44,585 nt of DNA, taken from assembly GCA_903844735.1 (NCBI GenBank), contig CAIMUX010000112.1:1-44585 (forward strand). The letters are read 5' to 3'. This DNA is from Candidatus Eiseniibacteriota bacterium (lineage in GTDB: Bacteria; Eisenbacteria; RBG-16-71-46; CAIMUX01). Below, in pieces: positions 37,317 to 43,793 of this stretch. Position 1 is the stretch's first letter, and every line of letters starts with the position of its first letter. Made by a program: the position numbers and the translations under genes. Below the pieces are notes generated by a model. It was not told the origin of the DNA and made no database searches. It saw nothing but the letters and a program-made list of their open reading frames with translations.

Positions 37317-40300
37317 TCAGCGAGTCAGGATCACCCGGGAGGTGCGGACCTGGTCGAGCGCGCGGAGCCGAACGAAATACACTCCTGACCCAACGCCCCT
37401 GCCGCGGTCGTCCCGACCGTCCCAGTCCACCCGGTGCAGGCCGGGATCCTGCGTGCGATTCACCAGCCGCGCCACGCGCCGGCCCTGCAGATCGAACACT
37501 TCCATCCGGACAGCCGCCGGTGCCGGCAGCGTGTAGGCCAGCGTGGTCACCGCGGTCATCGGGTTCGGCCGCGCGGGGATCAGGGCGAGAAGGTGGCTCG
37601 CCTCCTGGTTTCCGTCCGGCGCCTCTTCTAGGTCACCGACGCTCGCCTCCTCGTCACTCAAGATGATCTGATCCGGTCCGGCGGCGTGAATCACGACATG
37701 GGTCACGGCAAAGAAGTTGCCAGAGGTGGCCGCGGGCGTGATCCGAAGACAGTCGGCACCGGTCCCGCTGGTCTGCCCGGGTAGCATGAGCTCCACCGGG
37801 TTCTTCCAGCGGACAAGAAGAACCGGAAGATGCAGGGGTGATTCGACGCTGACCGACTGTTCATCGATCATCGGGTCCGTTCCGGCTCCGGGGGAGGCCT
37901 TGGCGATCCCGTTCGTTGCCTGAGTGGACCCGGCCGGGACACCGTTGAGCGTTGCCTCGTAGAGCAGGAGGGTCTGTCCGGGGATGTCACAGTCGATGGA
38001 AATCTTGGTGCCGCTACCGGGCTCTTCGGAAACGTCGATCGACCCGATCAGCTGATCGTTGTGACCATCGACGTTTCCGTAGAAGACGGTCGAAGTCGAG
38101 GAGTTGTCCGGCATCGGGCTGGGGGGCACCCAACTCGCCCTCCAGTTCCGGTTCCGATTGTCGTCGATGGTGATGGAGACGCCTCGGGACCCGCTCCACC
38201 CGAAACCGGTCATCACCAGGCTGGTATCAGCCAAGTCCAGGCAGAGACCTTCGAGGCCCGTATGCGGAAGGCCGCCGTAGTCCACCGTTTCCGGCAGGCA
38301 GAAGTCCGTCCAGCGCGCGATGTGAGACGAAGAGAATCCGCCGGCGCTCCAGAACTCGCCCGCCACGTAAAGACTCTCCGCCACGGACAGGAACTGCCAT
38401 GTAGACGTCGAGCTCGGATTGTTGTCGAGACCGGAACCTAGGGGGAGCCAGCCGGATCCGTCATAACGGGCGATGTGACTGGCCGGCCCTCCGCCCGCCT
38501 GGGTGAAGGAACCTCCCACGATGAGAGATCCGTTGAAGACCCCCAGGTCACAGACCGCGCTGTCCACGCCCGTTCCGAGCGGCGACCAATGTTGCCCATC
38601 CCAGGACGCGATGTGATTCGCGGCGCTGTCGCCAGCGGACGTGAACCGGCCGCCGGCGACAAGACTTCCATTCCACACTTCCAGGGCCTCGACGATGTGG
38701 TTCGTGCCGCCCCCGACCGGGCTCCAGAGCGTGCCAGTCCAGAGCGCCACGTGGTGCAGCATGGTGGCCCCCGAGGAGCTGAATGACCCGCCTGCCACCA
38801 AGCTGTCCTTGTAGGCAGCCAGGGCGCCGACATCCTCGTTCATGCCCTGTCCGAAGAACGACCAGCTCGACCCGTTCCAGCCCGCTATGTGATTCATGCT
38901 CTGGCTGCCTACTGAATGGAATCTTCCCCCGGCGACCAGCGTGTCGTGCCAAACCAGCAGCGCCATCACCCTGTCGTCCGGTTCGTTGCTCGGATCGAGG
39001 CTGACCCACTGATTGCCATCCCAGCGGGCGATGTTTCGGGGCGACCCGCCTGCCTCGCCGGTGAACTGGCCGCTTGCGATCAATTCGTTGTCGTACATGG
39101 CAAAGGCCGACACGGAGCCGTCCAGGGCTTCCATGGGACTCCATGCGTGCCCGTCCCACTGACCAACGCCGTGGAGCACGGCGTCGCCGGCCTGGGTCGT
39201 CGGACCGGTGCCCACGATGAGCCGGCCGTTGAACCAGGCCAAAGCATAGGCCTCGCCGACCCCCTGGCCAAAGCCGTGCCAGGCCGTTCCATCCCACCAC
39301 GCCGGGCACTCGAAGAAACTCATCTCGCCCCCCACCACGCCACCCGTGAACACGCCGCCCACGAAGAGACTGTCGCCGATCGCTTGCAGGCCCTCTACGC
39401 GGGCGTCAAGGCCGCCGTCACAAGCGGCCCAGTCGGTCCCAGTCCAACGAGCGATGTGGGGTGTGGAAAGCGTTCCCGCTGTTTCGAAATCGCCCCCTAA
39501 GACCAGCTCACCTTCGTCGTCCGCCAGGGCCCAGACATCCGAACCCACCCCTTCGTTCTCCTCGCTGCCCAAGGCGCTCCAAGATTGCGTTTGGTCGTCC
39601 CATCGGGCGACGTGGGACGCGGTCAAGCCGCCTGCGGAGGCGAAATCTCCCCCCGCCACGAGGTATTTGCCGGAGACGGTGAGTGCCCGGACGACGTTCG
39701 ATCCAGAGGTGAGCCCCGAGCCCAGTGCGGACCAGGACGAAGACGAGCTGTCCCATTTCGCAACCAGGTTGACGGACACGTCGCCGGCCATGTTGAACGT
39801 GCCGCCGGCAATCAGATGGTCGTTGTACACCGTCAGGGCGAGAACACACGGGCTCCCCGAAGGGTCCATCCAGATCCCGTCTCCAAGGGGGCTCCACGCG
39901 GTACTGTCCCATCGGGCGATGCTTTGGGCCGCGACGCCACCGGCCGTGGTGAAGTACCCGCCGGCAACGAGGTAGTCTCCGTGAACCGCGAGGGCATGTA
40001 CGCCGGCATCCATCCCACTCCCGAGCGCCCGCCAGGCGCTCCCGTCCCACCGGGCGATGTAGTTGACCGTGTCGCCATCCGCCTCGGTGAATTCACCACC
40101 GGCGACGAGATCACCTTGATAGATCGCGAGGGCGTGAACAGCTCCGTTCATACCTTGGCCGAGCGGCTCCATGCAAAGCCCGTTCCAGAGGGCGATGTTG
40201 TTGGCCTCCAAGCCGGCGATCCACGTGAATTTCCCCCCGATCACCGTTCCGTCGGCGATCTGTGCGAAGGCATACACGTGCTCCGGGTCCGGAGCCGGGT

Positions 40301-40616
40301 TCCAGGTGCCGCGGGTGCCGAATTCCCTGGCCCAGTGGCGATCGTCCTCGGTGGTCCGGGTGAAGACCGGATGGCCCAACCCGGGGCGGAACCGCGCGGT
40401 GTACCCCTGGAGATCGATCGTTCCCTCGAACCCGGAGACCCGAGCGGCCTGAACGTCAAACTCCCCTTCCGGGGTCAGAAAGCGGTCCACACCATAGCTC
40501 GGCCGCGCGTCTGTGGACCCCTCGGCTGCTTGGAGGGGCGACGGAAGCTGAAGCAGGACCGCGATACACAGCGCGGTCACACGGAGGGGGAATTGCCCGA
40601 AACGAGGAAGAATCAT
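37317..40616 (-). CDS. Secreted repeat protein (propeller-like) with C-terminal sorting domain
   Basis: A 1099-residue protein. The signal peptide MILPRFGQFPLRVTALCIAV ends near PLQAAEG. Residues ~85-780 contain about 14 repeats of 45-55 residues with the pattern 'LVAGGxFTxAGGxxxxHIARWDGxxWxPLGxGM' (examples: YLVAGGYFTTAGGVAAQSIA, SLVAGGRFTSAGDSAANHIA). Each likely forms a propeller-type beta blade. A proprotein-convertase/CUB-like beta-rich region follows. The final ~85 residues are a FlgD-like domain (RPNPMTAVTTLAYTLP, MEVFDLQGRRVARLV, GSGVYFVRLRALD). ATG 40616 has GGAGGT upstream and starts the signal peptide. It is a surface or extracellular protein; no enzyme motif is seen. Confidence 0.85.
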   Translation of the reverse strand: MILPRFGQFPLRVTALCIAVLLQLPSPLQAAEGSTDARPSYGVDRFLTPEGEFDVQAARVSGFEGTIDLQGYTARFRPGLGHPVFTRTTEDDRHWAREFGTRGTWNPAPDPEHVYAFAQIADGTVIGGKFTWIAGLEANNIALWNGLCMEPLGQGMNGAVHALAIYQGDLVAGGEFTEADGDTVNYIARWDGSAWRALGSGMDAGVHALAVHGDYLVAGGYFTTAGGVAAQSIARWDSTAWSPLGDGIWMDPSGSPCVLALTVYNDHLIAGGTFNMAGDVSVNLVAKWDSSSSSWSALGSGLTSGSNVVRALTVSGKYLVAGGDFASAGGLTASHVARWDDQTQSWSALGSEENEGVGSDVWALADDEGELVLGGDFETAGTLSTPHIARWTGTDWAACDGGLDARVEGLQAIGDSLFVGGVFTGGVVGGEMSFFECPAWWDGTAWHGFGQGVGEAYALAWFNGRLIVGTGPTTQAGDAVLHGVGQWDGHAWSPMEALDGSVSAFAMYDNELIASGQFTGEAGGSPRNIARWDGNQWVSLDPSNEPDDRVMALLVWHDTLVAGGRFHSVGSQSMNHIAGWNGSSWSFFGQGMNEDVGALAAYKDSLVAGGSFSSSGATMLHHVALWTGTLWSPVGGGTNHIVEALEVWNGSLVAGGRFTSAGDSAANHIASWDGQHWSPLGTGVDSAVCDLGVFNGSLIVGGSFTQAGGGPASHIARYDGSGWLPLGSGLDNNPSSTSTWQFLSVAESLYVAGEFWSAGGFSSSHIARWTDFCLPETVDYGGLPHTGLEGLCLDLADTSLVMTGFGWSGSRGVSITIDDNRNRNWRASWVPPSPMPDNSSTSTVFYGNVDGHNDQLIGSIDVSEEPGSGTKISIDCDIPGQTLLLYEATLNGVPAGSTQATNGIAKASPGAGTDPMIDEQSVSVESPLHLPVLLVRWKNPVELMLPGQTSGTGADCLRITPAATSGNFFAVTHVVIHAAGPDQIILSDEEASVGDLEEAPDGNQEASHLLALIPARPNPMTAVTTLAYTLPAPAAVRMEVFDLQGRRVARLVNRTQDPGLHRVDWDGRDDRGRGVGSGVYFVRLRALDQVRTSRVILTR

Positions 40617-41283
40617 GGCTGACCTCCATGGAAACCTGCGGGTAACGAATGTGAGATGGGGGCTGCCGGTTCCTCTGAACCATGGGTCCGAGGCCACCCG
40701 CGGCCGACCCCCGTGAAACAACCGCGTGGAAAAAATGACGGACGGAGGGCGAAGGCTTGCTCTCAGGGCACCGGAGAGGGACCGGACTCGCGCGCGGGGA
40801 TCGGGGGTCGGGTCCGGCTGAAGGTGCCCCAGGCCCGTCTCGCGAGGGGTTACCGAGTCCTTCAGCGCCGTCGGATCGAGATTCATCCCTTGTCTCCCGC
40901 CTCAGGGAACCGGGTCGACGTTCCAGCACCGGTGGGTGCTGACCCTGGTAGAGCGGTCGTCGACGTCACGCACATCGCATTTTAGGCTTGAAGGTGGCGG
41001 GCTTCCATCGCAATCCGTGGGAGACCCCGTCTCCACTCCCGGGCCGTCTTTGCTTCCCTTGATGCAAGCCGGAGGCAACGGCGGCGGAAAACCCTGCATC
41101 CGCACGGTGTGACACCCCAGACCCGACACGCACAGCGGCAACTTCCTGTTATGTGGCCAGATGCGGGCCGGTTCGGTGAAGGCACGTCGCGTTCCATCCA
41201 GCGCGGGAACGACCGGCAGGGTGGAGGAACGTCCCAGCCCGGCCGATCCTTAAGGAGGTTTCGCTACGCCCGGGGAGGACCGA
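40617..41283. other. Divergent intergenic region before pilT
   Basis: 667 bases between the repeat-protein gene (minus) and pilT (plus). I see no supported gene. A perfect Shine-Dalgarno core TAAGGAGGT near 41251-41259 lies too far (about 25 bases) from the pilT TTG, while GGGGAGG at 41273-41279 is well placed. It must carry promoters for both directions, but none stands out. Confidence 0.4.
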
Positions 41284-42363
41284 TTGGCCCGCATAGACGC
41301 GATCCTCACGATGGTGAAGGAGCAGGGTGCCTCAGACCTGCACATCTCGACCGGAGCACCGCCCATGCTCCGTGTCTCCGGGGAGATGCGCCCGGTGGAG
41401 TCGCCTGAGTTGACCGGAGAGCAGGCGCGGCAGCTTCTCTACGAGATGATGTCCCCCGAGCAGCGCTCCCAGTTCGAACGCGACCGCGACATCGACTTCG
41501 CCTACGAAGTGCCCGGCGAAGTCCGCGTCCGCTGCAACCTCTTCGAACAGATCCGCGGAATCGCCGGCGCGTTTCGCCTGCTCCCGACCCAGATCTACAC
41601 GCTGGATCAGTTGGGCCTGCCCGAAGCGATCCGGCGCTTCGCTGAACTGCGCAAGGGGCTCGTAGTGGTGACCGGCCCGCCCGGCTCAGGGAAAAGCACG
41701 ACCCTCGCGGCGCTGCTGCACTACATCAACAGCACGCAGCACCATCACATCATCACCATCGAGGACCCGGTCGAGTATGTACACCCGAACCTGAATTGCC
41801 TGGTGAATCAGCGCGAGGTGGGCCGGAGCGCCCGGTCGTTCGCCTCGGCGCTGCGGGCCGCCCTTCGGGAGGATCCCAATATTATCCTGGTGGGCGAGAT
41901 GCGGGACCTCGAAACAATGTCGCTCGCCATCACCGCAGCGGAAACCGGACAATTGGTCCTGGCCACGCTGCACACCGCCAGCGCTCCGCAGACGGTGGAC
42001 CGGATCATCGATGCGTTCCCCGATGAGAAACAGGCCCAGATCCGCACGATGCTGGCCGATTCGCTGCGCGGCGTGGTGGCGCAACGGTTGGTTCGGCGCG
42101 CCGACGGCAAGGGACGGTTGGCGGCGGTGGAACTCCTCTTCGGAACGATGGCGGTTGCGTCGCTCATCCGCGAACGGAAAACGTTCCAGTTGGGGACCCT
42201 GATGCAGACCGGGCGCAAGGAGGGGATGGTCCTGCTCGACAATGTCCTCATGCAGTACGTTCGCGACGGGCTGATCACCCCCCGCGAGGCGATGCTCAAC
42301 GCCAATGTGAAGGAGCCGTTCGTCCTTCTGGCCGAACAGGCTCCCCGCGTGCGAGCGGCCTGA
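41284..42363 (+). CDS. pilT: Type IV pilus retraction ATPase PilT
   Basis: A 359-residue protein. The N-terminal PAS-like domain begins MARIDAILTMVKEQGASDLH (ASDLHIS motif). Walker A is VVTGPPGSGKSTTLAALL near 126. The Asp box is IITIEDPVEYVH near 157, Walker B is DPNIILVGEMRDLETM near 199, and the His box is LATLHTASA near 224. The C-terminal PilT motif is ASLIRERKTFQLGTLMQTGR near 297. PilT is a cytoplasmic hexameric ATPase powering pilus retraction. TTG is the only sensible start, with GGGGAGG just upstream. No other pilus genes lie in the window. The next gene starts 2 bases after its stop. Confidence 0.95.
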   Translation: MARIDAILTMVKEQGASDLHISTGAPPMLRVSGEMRPVESPELTGEQARQLLYEMMSPEQRSQFERDRDIDFAYEVPGEVRVRCNLFEQIRGIAGAFRLLPTQIYTLDQLGLPEAIRRFAELRKGLVVVTGPPGSGKSTTLAALLHYINSTQHHHIITIEDPVEYVHPNLNCLVNQREVGRSARSFASALRAALREDPNIILVGEMRDLETMSLAITAAETGQLVLATLHTASAPQTVDRIIDAFPDEKQAQIRTMLADSLRGVVAQRLVRRADGKGRLAAVELLFGTMAVASLIRERKTFQLGTLMQTGRKEGMVLLDNVLMQYVRDGLITPREAMLNANVKEPFVLLAEQAPRVRAA

Positions 42364-42365
42364 CG

Positions 42366-43793
42366 GTGGCGGGCATGACTACGGGACCACACAGCTCGGC
42401 GAGCGCCGCCGCCGCGCCCGCCCTCACCGGAAGGCTGGCGGCGATCTCCCTGTTCGATCTCTGCCAGTTCCTGATGCTGAACCGGAAGACCGGAACACTC
42501 ACGGTTCGTGCTGCCGGCGGTCCCGGCGCCGCCTACTTCACCTTCTTCGAAGGAGAGCTCTGCACGGCACTGGACGACAGCCTGCGCGAGGGTGCGGAGG
42601 TGGTGCTTGCGGCCGTGCAGTGGACGGAAGGGAGTTTTGAGTTTGTCCAGTGGCCGGTGCCGCCCGATCGGCGGATGAACGGCTCGACGGAGAACATTCT
42701 TCTCGATGCTGCCCGCCAGCTCGACGAGATGCAGGAGAAGGATCGATCCGGCGGCGGGAGAGGCGCGGCGAATTCCGCGGAGCAGGCTTTCCGCGACAAA
42801 CAGGCCAGGGCGGCTTCCATCGCCGAAGCGTTCTGCAGCCTTGTGGCGGAGGGCGATCGGAGTCGCACGACCGCGGGATGGCGCGAGGCGGCCAAAACCC
42901 GTCTGCTGGAACCGGCGGTGGAGCGGCTCGTTCTCTGTGCGGATGGGCGGGCAGGGCTTCTCGTCGATGGGCGGTTCGAGGAGATTCCCGAGGCGATACC
43001 CGCCGAGGTCAGTGCCTGGATGGAGCAACTGGCGCCGGTTTCGGCGCGCGCTCCCGGGAAGACCGGCCGTGCCCGTCAAGGGCCACCGGAAGCCAGGCCG
43101 GGACCCGATGATCTCTGGGGCCTCCGCGTGGAGACAACGGACGGCGACCTCGTTTTTGTGACGCGGGCCCGGCGCGCGTGGCCGGAGATGCAGGCCCTGC
43201 CATTGACTCCCGAAGAGGTCGCGGCCCTCGATGCGATTCCCTGCGGCCTGGTGGCGGTGCTTGGTTCGGTCGGAGCGATCCCTTCCGCCTGGCCAGCGTG
43301 GGAGGCGTCGGCGGCCTGGATAGCGCGGCGAACGATGGCCCGGCCCGCGACCGGCTGGATCGTCGAGGAGACGCCGCGCTATCACTGGCCTGGATTGCCG
43401 GGCCGCTGGCGGCGCGTCGCACCCACTCGACTGCGAATGGCAGGCGCGCTGGAGAGCCTGGCCCGAACGAGCCGCCCGTCGGTGCTGGTCTTCGACGGCC
43501 TGCCCCGCCCCGATCTTCTGGAGGAAGCGGCGCGGCTTGGGGCGGCGGGGCTCCTCGTCGTGGTCGTTGATGCGGCCGATCAGGCATCCGCCTGGCTAGC
43601 CGCGGCCGAGTGCCGGGGTTCGGACGCAGCCGCAGGCGAAGACCCTCAATTCGCGGCCACGGCTGTCGTACGCGCGGACCGCTGTTCCGATGGAACGGGT
43701 CGCCCCCAACAATGGACACGGTGGGCCCGCCTTCTTCTTCCCTCGCGCCCCTCCCGCCTGCCCCCGGCCGACACGCCCGCGCTGTCCCGGTGA
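42366..43793 (+). CDS. DUF4388 protein with a degenerate PilT-like ATPase domain
   Basis: A 475-residue protein starting with GTG (or ATG 42375). Residues ~20-115 are a DUF4388 (PATAN) domain: LTGRLAAISLFDLCQFLMLN, RKTGTLTV and YFTFFEGELCTALDD. Residues ~250-415 seem to follow the PilT ATPase core without its motifs. IPCGLVAVLGSVGAIPSAWP aligns with the Walker A strand (lacking GKST), GWIVEETPRYHWPGL with IITIEDPVEYVHPNL, and SRPSVLVFDGLPRPDLLEEA with DPNIILVGEMRDLETM. LLVVVVDAAD aligns with LVLATLHTAS. ATP hydrolysis is therefore not expected. DUF4388 proteins occur in gliding and pilus-regulation loci. Tandem position right after pilT suggests it regulates or binds PilT. Confidence 0.75.
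   Translation: MAGMTTGPHSSASAAAAPALTGRLAAISLFDLCQFLMLNRKTGTLTVRAAGGPGAAYFTFFEGELCTALDDSLREGAEVVLAAVQWTEGSFEFVQWPVPPDRRMNGSTENILLDAARQLDEMQEKDRSGGGRGAANSAEQAFRDKQARAASIAEAFCSLVAEGDRSRTTAGWREAAKTRLLEPAVERLVLCADGRAGLLVDGRFEEIPEAIPAEVSAWMEQLAPVSARAPGKTGRARQGPPEARPGPDDLWGLRVETTDGDLVFVTRARRAWPEMQALPLTPEEVAALDAIPCGLVAVLGSVGAIPSAWPAWEASAAWIARRTMARPATGWIVEETPRYHWPGLPGRWRRVAPTRLRMAGALESLARTSRPSVLVFDGLPRPDLLEEAARLGAAGLLVVVVDAADQASAWLAAAECRGSDAAAGEDPQFAATAVVRADRCSDGTGRPQQWTRWARLLLPSRPSRLPPADTPALSR

Follow-up and report, generated by a model that had tools for sequence, protein, structure and literature searches.

What is the role of a protein that is encoded immediately behind pilT, the gene of the pilus retraction motor, and that appears to be a copy of that motor without its catalytic chemistry? 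The question is raised by a gene at positions 42366–43793 (forward strand) of the window, by which we mean the whole 44,585 nt stretch of DNA analysed, one entire contig (C112) from an assembly of 5.4 Mb. The ORF was confirmed, with a GTG start lying 2 nt past the stop codon of pilT and a product of 475 aa; this product, a dead PilT paralogue fused to DUF4388, is termed D throughout. The features of the gene pair are as follows:

41284–42363, forward strand: pilT, an intact PilT/PilU-family retraction ATPase and the partner of D (TIGR01420, 455.2 bits against a cut-off of 319.1; T2SSE, E 3e-49; Walker A, Walker B, Asp and His boxes intact; clades with 27 other partner PilTs).
42366–43793, forward strand: D, dead PilT paralogue plus DUF4388, 475 aa (ORF, DUF4388 match, family profiles and AlphaFold2 model; homologues at the equivalent site in 29 further genomes).
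42426–42731, forward strand: DUF4388 domain, aa 21–122 (PF14332, 65.8 bits against a cut-off of 25 bits; 69.5 bits on the genome; block pLDDT 78–91 over aa 21–120).
42753–42893, forward strand: linker, mostly helical in the model, aa 130–176, of low confidence (helices at 136–165 and 170–180; block pLDDT 38–65).
42894–43190, forward strand: part resembling the PilT N-terminal domain, about aa 177–275 (aligned by hhalign to PilT from residue 7 onward and by VIA-align from model residue 173; block pLDDT 32–70, better in the relative L047).
43191–43628, forward strand: RecA-like core without catalytic residues, about aa 276–421 (profile alignment, PDB profile search and structure matches).
43263–43289, forward strand: former Walker A, GSVGAIPSA, aa 300–308, where PilT has GPPGSGKST (profile and family alignments).
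43353–43379, forward strand: former Asp box, GWIVEETPR, aa 330–338, with Glu kept at the position of PilT E160 (alignments).
43473–43511, forward strand: former Walker B, RPSVLVFDGLPRP, aa 370–382, with the catalytic Glu replaced by Gly (alignments).

The initial annotation had described this gene as a DUF4388 domain fused to a PilT-like domain beside pilT, and the ORF, the PF14332 match, the profiles and the AlphaFold2 model all bore this out. Two additional PilT-family genes (L201 and L200) were found in the window's genome, one of them directly 3' of a PilB-like gene, and the window's pair is thus not the sole retraction ATPase there. Elsewhere in the window, 37317–40886 (reverse strand) encodes a 1189-aa protein of repeat units, whose C-terminus resembles, by eye, an FlgD-type or sorting signal.

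For comparisons across the family we used three alignments: A1, comprising window D and 12 relatives (13 sequences); A2, their 13 PilT neighbours; and A3, 14 D sequences (window D and 13 relatives from named records) with no PilT rows. DUF4388 was matched in 14/14 members of A3 (limit E ≤ 1), and A1 contained 18 invariant columns, all of which fall within DUF4388 except that of the start Met. A domain-library search of window D found no receiver or other known signalling domain. Of four longer DUF4388 proteins from other bacteria that were tested, L050 and L061 had DUF4388 fused to receiver domains. Further DUF4388 sequences in the window's genome were seen at G000:C119:36240–36695 (clear) and G000:C79:20470–20625 (weak); a plasmid search with the DUF4388 part of D returned no match. 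DUF4388 is presumably the PATAN domain (InterPro 'PatA-like, N-terminal'). Our literature search found no paper linking these two names, and a single paper on DUF4388, the topic of which, from the part of it available, is nitrite reductase.

Past DUF4388, window D matched nothing when used on its own. No match was obtained in Pfam outside DUF4388 (E ≤ 1), with TIGR01420 (E ≤ 1) or by single-sequence phmmer against the PDB (E ≤ 10); an HMM of 28 partner PilTs missed it (E 78), and a scan of genome contigs with window D as single query gave zero relatives. For this reason the alignment with the PilT core that had been made by eye for the C-terminal half was tested through the family, in which identity to window D is low (22–32 % among the 13 sequences of A1, vs 58–74 % for the PilT equivalents). 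By profile–profile comparison of A1 with A2, window aa 177–421 aligned to PilT 7–252 with a probability of 93.4 and an E-value of 2.4e-7. Searched against the PDB, the A3 profile matched PilT 5fl3 (E 1.4e-20), PilT 6ojx (1.4e-18) and PilU 9n32 (2.9e-18) over profile positions 152–420, and more weakly DotB (3e-6) and GspE (∼3e-4). The window's own PilT-like part was recognized at E 6.2e-19 when the HMM was built from the remaining 31 members; more generally, leave-one-out HMMs recognized the part following DUF4388 in 31/32 members at E < 1e-3, with 0/32 reversed controls detected. The sole member missed was G005 (E 0.6); membership was defined as DUF4388 plus a PilT-like part detected by full-length profiles.

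Direct links to PilT were also present in parts of the family. The HMM of 28 partner PilTs detected eight of 32 D parts at E < 1e-3, and TIGR01420 matched seven of the 14 single A3 members at E ≤ 1 (best 1.9e-7), window D not being one of them. Two intermediates, L238 and L243, scored 97 and 100.1 bits on this model, the latter being the best of three D proteins scored and still below the 319.1 bits required, and both passed the PF00437 cut-off of 24.9 (26.8 and 33.3 bits, respectively). Walker A and the Walker B Glu are both retained in L238, which matched PilU by phmmer on its own (E 4.9e-19). In the reverse direction, an A1 search of the 47 genomes of the window's class also retrieved PilT-like ATPases, with E-values down to ∼2e-16 over model positions ∼150–415; the top one, L202, is a full PilT-family protein (TIGR01420, 442 bits), and the window's own PilT was absent among the matches listed for the D profile at E ≤ 1e-9. 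The part of D behind DUF4388, N-terminal domain as well as RecA core, is therefore of PilT descent, and for window D this homology is established through the family and not through its own sequence alone. The alignment by eye accordingly holds, and with it the core of the PilT-like span that had been placed at residues 250–415; that extent was too narrow, as homology begins at about aa 170 and includes the PilT N-terminal domain. A tree of five D cores amongst PilTs, with branches of up to 10 changes per column, gave no resolved point of origin for D.

The structure prediction and superposition on PilT proposed in the initial annotation gave a concordant picture. Window D was modelled with AlphaFold2 from A3 (14 rows, no templates, no PilT rows) at modest confidence (mean pLDDT 64.2, pTM 0.42); by blocks, pLDDT was 70–84 over aa 271–400 except for 45 at 301–310, 32–70 in the part resembling the N-terminal domain and below 50 in the tail past 438. 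The best Foldseek match was PilU 9n32 (E 3.3e-9), with PilT 2ewv at 9.5e-9. VIA-align 2 placed PilU first at Z 17.3 (rmsd 4.3, 269 residues, model 173–461), tied with DotB at 16.7 as rows with Z within 1 count as equal, followed by PilT at ∼16, PilB/GspE types at 13–15 and RadA/KaiC at ∼11. L047, a relative in which the C-terminal helical part is retained, was modelled with a pLDDT of 78.4 and matched PilT4 (Z 22.8; 313 residues, model 163–486), with GspE and PilB at 21–22; the high rmsd of this match (8.4) likely reflects domains that are differently placed. The archaeal structure 5f4h, titled a RuvB-like helicase, scored Z 15.2 with window D and 17.7 with L047. The AlphaFold models alone did not separate PilT from PilB, GspE and DotB; sequence profiles did so better. 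A fold unrelated to RecA-like ATPases, named beforehand as the outcome that would speak against a PilT-like domain, was not seen, the predicted fold being PilU/PilT-like (Z 16–17 for the window, 22.8 for L047). That the C-terminal half is an unrelated fold with a chance likeness to PilT might be argued from window D alone, which matches only DUF4388 in Pfam and nothing in the PDB and is missed by the partner-PilT HMM; set against this are the profile match to PilT at E 1.4e-20, the match of the window part to the rest of the family, structural Z-scores of 17.3 and 22.8, and the 97–100 bits of L238 and L243 on TIGR01420. We regard chance likeness as vanishingly improbable.

The loss of catalytic residues from window D was confirmed by these alignments. 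Walker A, GPPGSGKS in PilT, reads GSVGAIPS; Walker B changes from ILVGEMRD to LVFDGLPR, with Gly in place of Glu; the His-box histidine is gone, and only the Glu position of the Asp box still holds Glu. The claim that Walker A, Walker B and His-box residues are missing is thus accurate for window D (GSVGAIPS, VFDGL, no His), as is the description 'P-loop-less'; as a description of the family the latter fails, because four of 33 D sequences, from 32 genomes with G061 counted as two pieces, keep GxxxxGK[ST] (G028, G069, G243 and G198). Among sequences with a residue at the respective position, the Walker A lysine was lost in 28/32, whilst the Walker B Glu was kept in 6/24, the His-box His in 0/28 and the Asp-box Glu in 11/30. 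No D sequence combines Walker A, the Walker B Glu and the His. The partner PilTs, by comparison, showed GxxxxGK[ST] in 28/28 and intact Lys, Glu and His in 27/28, one row being gapped there. With the catalytic residues lost, D is very unlikely to hydrolyse ATP, although the four relatives that bear Walker A may bind nucleotide.

The pairing of D with pilT is not peculiar to the window. The survey suggested in the initial annotation showed pilT directly upstream of D in 30/30 genomes that have upstream DNA on the contig, with junctions that, where readable, are a short overlap or a gap of < 30 nt. Two genomes with D at a contig edge (G001 and G069) are left out of the 30; in G069 a clade-type PilT ends another contig. 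Besides Candidatus Eisenbacteria, the phylum of the window, at least three further lineages have the pair. In a first set, D and PilT stood on the same strand in 14 of 18 loci from relatives and the window's own genome, 12 of the 14 with gaps of −4 to +12 nt; for L029 and L035 the open frame extends upstream, and the computed gap is no true distance. The other four loci of this set comprised D pieces at contig edges (L036 and L037) and two DUF4388 genes, one being another gene of the window's own genome (L038) and the other a distant one (L039). In a second set, searched with an alignment as query, PilT was directly upstream of D in 13 of the best 80 of 152 loci, one locus began inside D, and 66 held other DUF4388 proteins; two of these 66 loci contained, at some point in the locus, weak or partial matches to the PilT model (L056, a fragment, and L111, E 9e-4). 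Seven genomes were new among these best 80 of 152 loci, labelled by their MAG titles as Gemmatimonadetes/Gemmatimonadota (L041 and L054), Planctomycetota (L043 and L046), Eisenbacteria (L047 and L051) and plain 'bacterium' (L045). A third set added eight more pairs (L197, L198, L238, L243, L244, L245, L246 and L247), with gaps of up to +27 nt.

Full D genes were found in 15 of 47 genomes of the window's class, with a fragment in G001; the phylum consists of the same 47 genomes. Six of seven genomes in the phylum of G063 carried D, as did one of five in that of G065. All three genomes in the class of G060 had it (L043 and L046, labelled Planctomycetota, belong to this class), and D was found in nine of 199 sampled genomes of the phylum of G060 at E ≤ 1e-30, including these three, the 199 being an even draw from a larger group. 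When 20 loci were compared, neighbours other than pilT were common only to subsets (among the matches listed). Long proteins with Ser/Thr kinase-like starts, as judged by eye, are encoded upstream of pilT at L025 2202–5771 and L022 10590–13778; the former shows similarity to something in L022 and L046 (among the matches listed). At L045 4698–7261, pilT and D are both broken by apparent frameshifts in the MAG, which may reflect sequencing error or decay.

D accompanies one lineage of PilT. In a tree of 28 partner and 38 unpaired PilTs, the latter hand-picked from profile hits in these genomes and thus a subset of all their PilTs, a branch with support 99/96 separated the partners from the rest, and the label partner/unpaired required one change on the tree vs 21.7 in shuffles. 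Tandem pairs of live PilT-family proteins also occur in relatives (L202, L213, L214 and L215) and branch near the partner clade with weak support (84/46). We then searched with a partner-PilT query (A5), using limits of 530 and 550 bits, placed by eye where the scores showed gaps. Sixteen PilTs of the window's class reached 530 bits, 15 with D and one, in G039, without; ten PilTs of the phylum of G060 reached 550 bits, eight with D (that of G069 across a contig break) and two, in G256 and G173, without. In an enlarged tree, built by a quick method with SH-aLRT support only, the three PilTs lacking D and that of G069 lay inside the partner clade (32 rows, SH-aLRT 96), next to D-bearing relatives, whereas two PilTs just below the bit limit lay outside it. 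The nesting of PilTs without D inside the clade suggests that D is old there and was later lost, probably at least twice, and the existence of three such PilTs means that this PilT can do without D.

Purifying selection was seen to act on D, which evolves faster than PilT: dN/dS was 0.15 (G059/G068), 0.42 (G032/G033) and 0.45 (G032/G038, C-terminal part) for D vs 0.06 (G059/G068) and 0.14 (G032/G033) for PilT. These values bear on the view that D is a redundant PilU-type copy decaying on its way to loss. Uneven erosion of the catalytic motifs across lineages, the absence of D beside three clade PilTs and the apparent frameshifts in L045, where pilT is split as well, might be read in this way; given ORFs that are intact across several phyla, a dN/dS of 0.15–0.45, the 18 invariant columns of A1 and synteny in 30/30 genomes, we consider such decay very improbable. 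That D is a dead ATPase paralogue tied to pilT, as proposed earlier, is instead supported by the profile searches, two predicted structures and the synteny in 30 genomes, and the regulatory or adaptor role suggested for it agrees with the conserved pairing, with the single clade of partner PilTs and with purifying selection on D. Since several phyla have kept the pair, D probably serves to control pilus retraction.

The closest known counterpart is PilU, the gene of which also lies directly downstream of pilT and which drives retraction only with PilT present, even a Walker-mutant PilT (PMC6762196; PMC6821130, as far as the available text of these papers goes). D is likewise a PilT paralogue encoded directly 3' of pilT, and wherever a contig reaches upstream of D it carries pilT there, which is consistent with a PilU-like dependence on PilT. 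PilU was also the top structural match of the window D model (in Z tied with DotB), third in the search of the A3 profile against the PDB and first in the phmmer search with L238. The two differ in that PilU keeps Walker A and B and requires its own Walker boxes for retraction (PMC6762196, in the part available), whereas D has mostly lost them and carries DUF4388. From PilT itself (TIGR01420), to which it aligns along N-terminal domain and RecA core, D is set apart by the absence of the catalytic motifs, by scores far under the TIGR01420 cut-off where tested and by the DUF4388 in front.

A PilU-like position, descent from PilT and lost motor chemistry lead us to read D as a non-catalytic accessory, and on balance we lean towards one that occupies the position of PilU beside its own PilT, with DUF4388 as a docking or signalling module. 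D would be made together with that PilT and act on it, taking PilU's place by virtue of a gene directly downstream of pilT. It would dock on the PilT ring, either stacked on it as a ring of its own or built into it as inert subunits, and perhaps on PilC too, contributing no ATP turnover; DUF4388 would serve for input or docking and thereby set the time or place at which PilT engages the base of the pilus. Speaking against this reading are the three clade PilTs that do without D, the fast divergence of D, the failure of the partner-PilT HMM to find most D parts directly, the modest confidence of the window D model and the Walker A kept in four relatives. Sensing through DUF4388, as initially put forward, is at this point a suggestion by analogy.

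The same arrangement could also serve as a brake, with D acting as an antagonist, through inert subunits in the PilT ring or competition for PilC, until a signal to DUF4388 releases it. A dead paralogue of a hexameric motor encoded beside the live one, with catalysis gone and fold retained, would suit such a device. PilT and PilU of Vibrio cholerae each assemble into a homohexamer of their own, and the two may form a complex (PMC6821130, in the text available); this argues against mixed rings as the default, and we consider a brake unlikely.

Somewhat doubtful, if less so, is a reading of D as an adaptor for place, in which the dead PilT part would dock on PilC or the PilT ring and DUF4388 would tie it to a polarity or signalling protein. 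Precedent comes from PATAN response regulators, which bind PilB1 and steer phototaxis, PixG also binding PilC and being located at the leading pole in Synechocystis (PMC12288463, PMC7690835; for PixE–PilB1 binding, PMC7690835; available portions of both papers). The DUF4388–receiver fusions of L050 and L061 parallel the PATAN–CheY fusions in the available literature text, and loss of catalysis with retention of the PilT fold is as an adaptor would have it. If the proposed likeness to PixE and PixG is real, DUF4388/PATAN would in both cases act on pilus motor ATPases. Yet window D carries no receiver or other known signalling domain, the equation of DUF4388 with PATAN is presumptive, and docking alone would make the conservation of a two-domain, PilT-shaped body surprising. 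The PATAN–CheY regulators themselves differ from D in having a receiver domain and no dead ATPase and in binding PilB1 (PixG also PilC), PilT being unnamed in the portions available.

FimX offers another parallel to the accessory that we favour, being a catalytically degenerate (GGDEF) regulator of pilus assembly (PMC11656802, in part); its GGDEF/EAL domains are unrelated to D, and the available part of that review treats it with PilZ among cofactors of PilB, not PilT. Our literature searches found no paper joining pseudoATPase and type IV pilus, and no dead PilT paralogue among the best 10–15 results of longer lists, judged by title or the start of the abstract. Paralogues and regulators of pilus motors are a known kind; what appears to be new, not having been found in the literature searched, is that a PilU position, a fusion to DUF4388, the loss of catalysis and broad conservation occur together.

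A second inert motor may accompany D in one class. In G060 (L043 1–1722) and G069 (L285 713–2539), a gene with MshEN and a T2SSE core lies directly upstream of the partner-type pilT. The protein of L043 matched PilF/PilB best in the PDB (E 2e-42 and 3e-36), and at Walker A the two proteins read GHQWEGSS (L043) and GNTPAATS (L285), the lysine of GxxxxGK[ST] being gone; each is a probable dead PilB, a candidate seen in these two genomes, which both belong to G060's class. In G062, another member of that class, the ORFs listed 5' of pilT do not start like the MshEN/T2SSE protein. It is possible, and we propose it only tentatively, that D-type pseudo-ATPases are a switchable clutch of the retraction motor, seated on or in the ring of one PilT lineage, and that in this one class (G060 and G069) the dead MshEN PilB upstream would provide both motors with an inert, signal-bearing counterpart.

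How cells time pilus retraction is an open question, and the control proteins known so far act mostly on the extension motor. A dead PilT kept next to its dedicated PilT would build a point of control into retraction itself, and DUF4388, a domain of unknown function, gains a concrete candidate partner in the pilus motor. Finally, the series of decay across the family, from an intact Walker A in a few relatives to no motif left, represents a natural experiment in the turning of a motor into a regulator.
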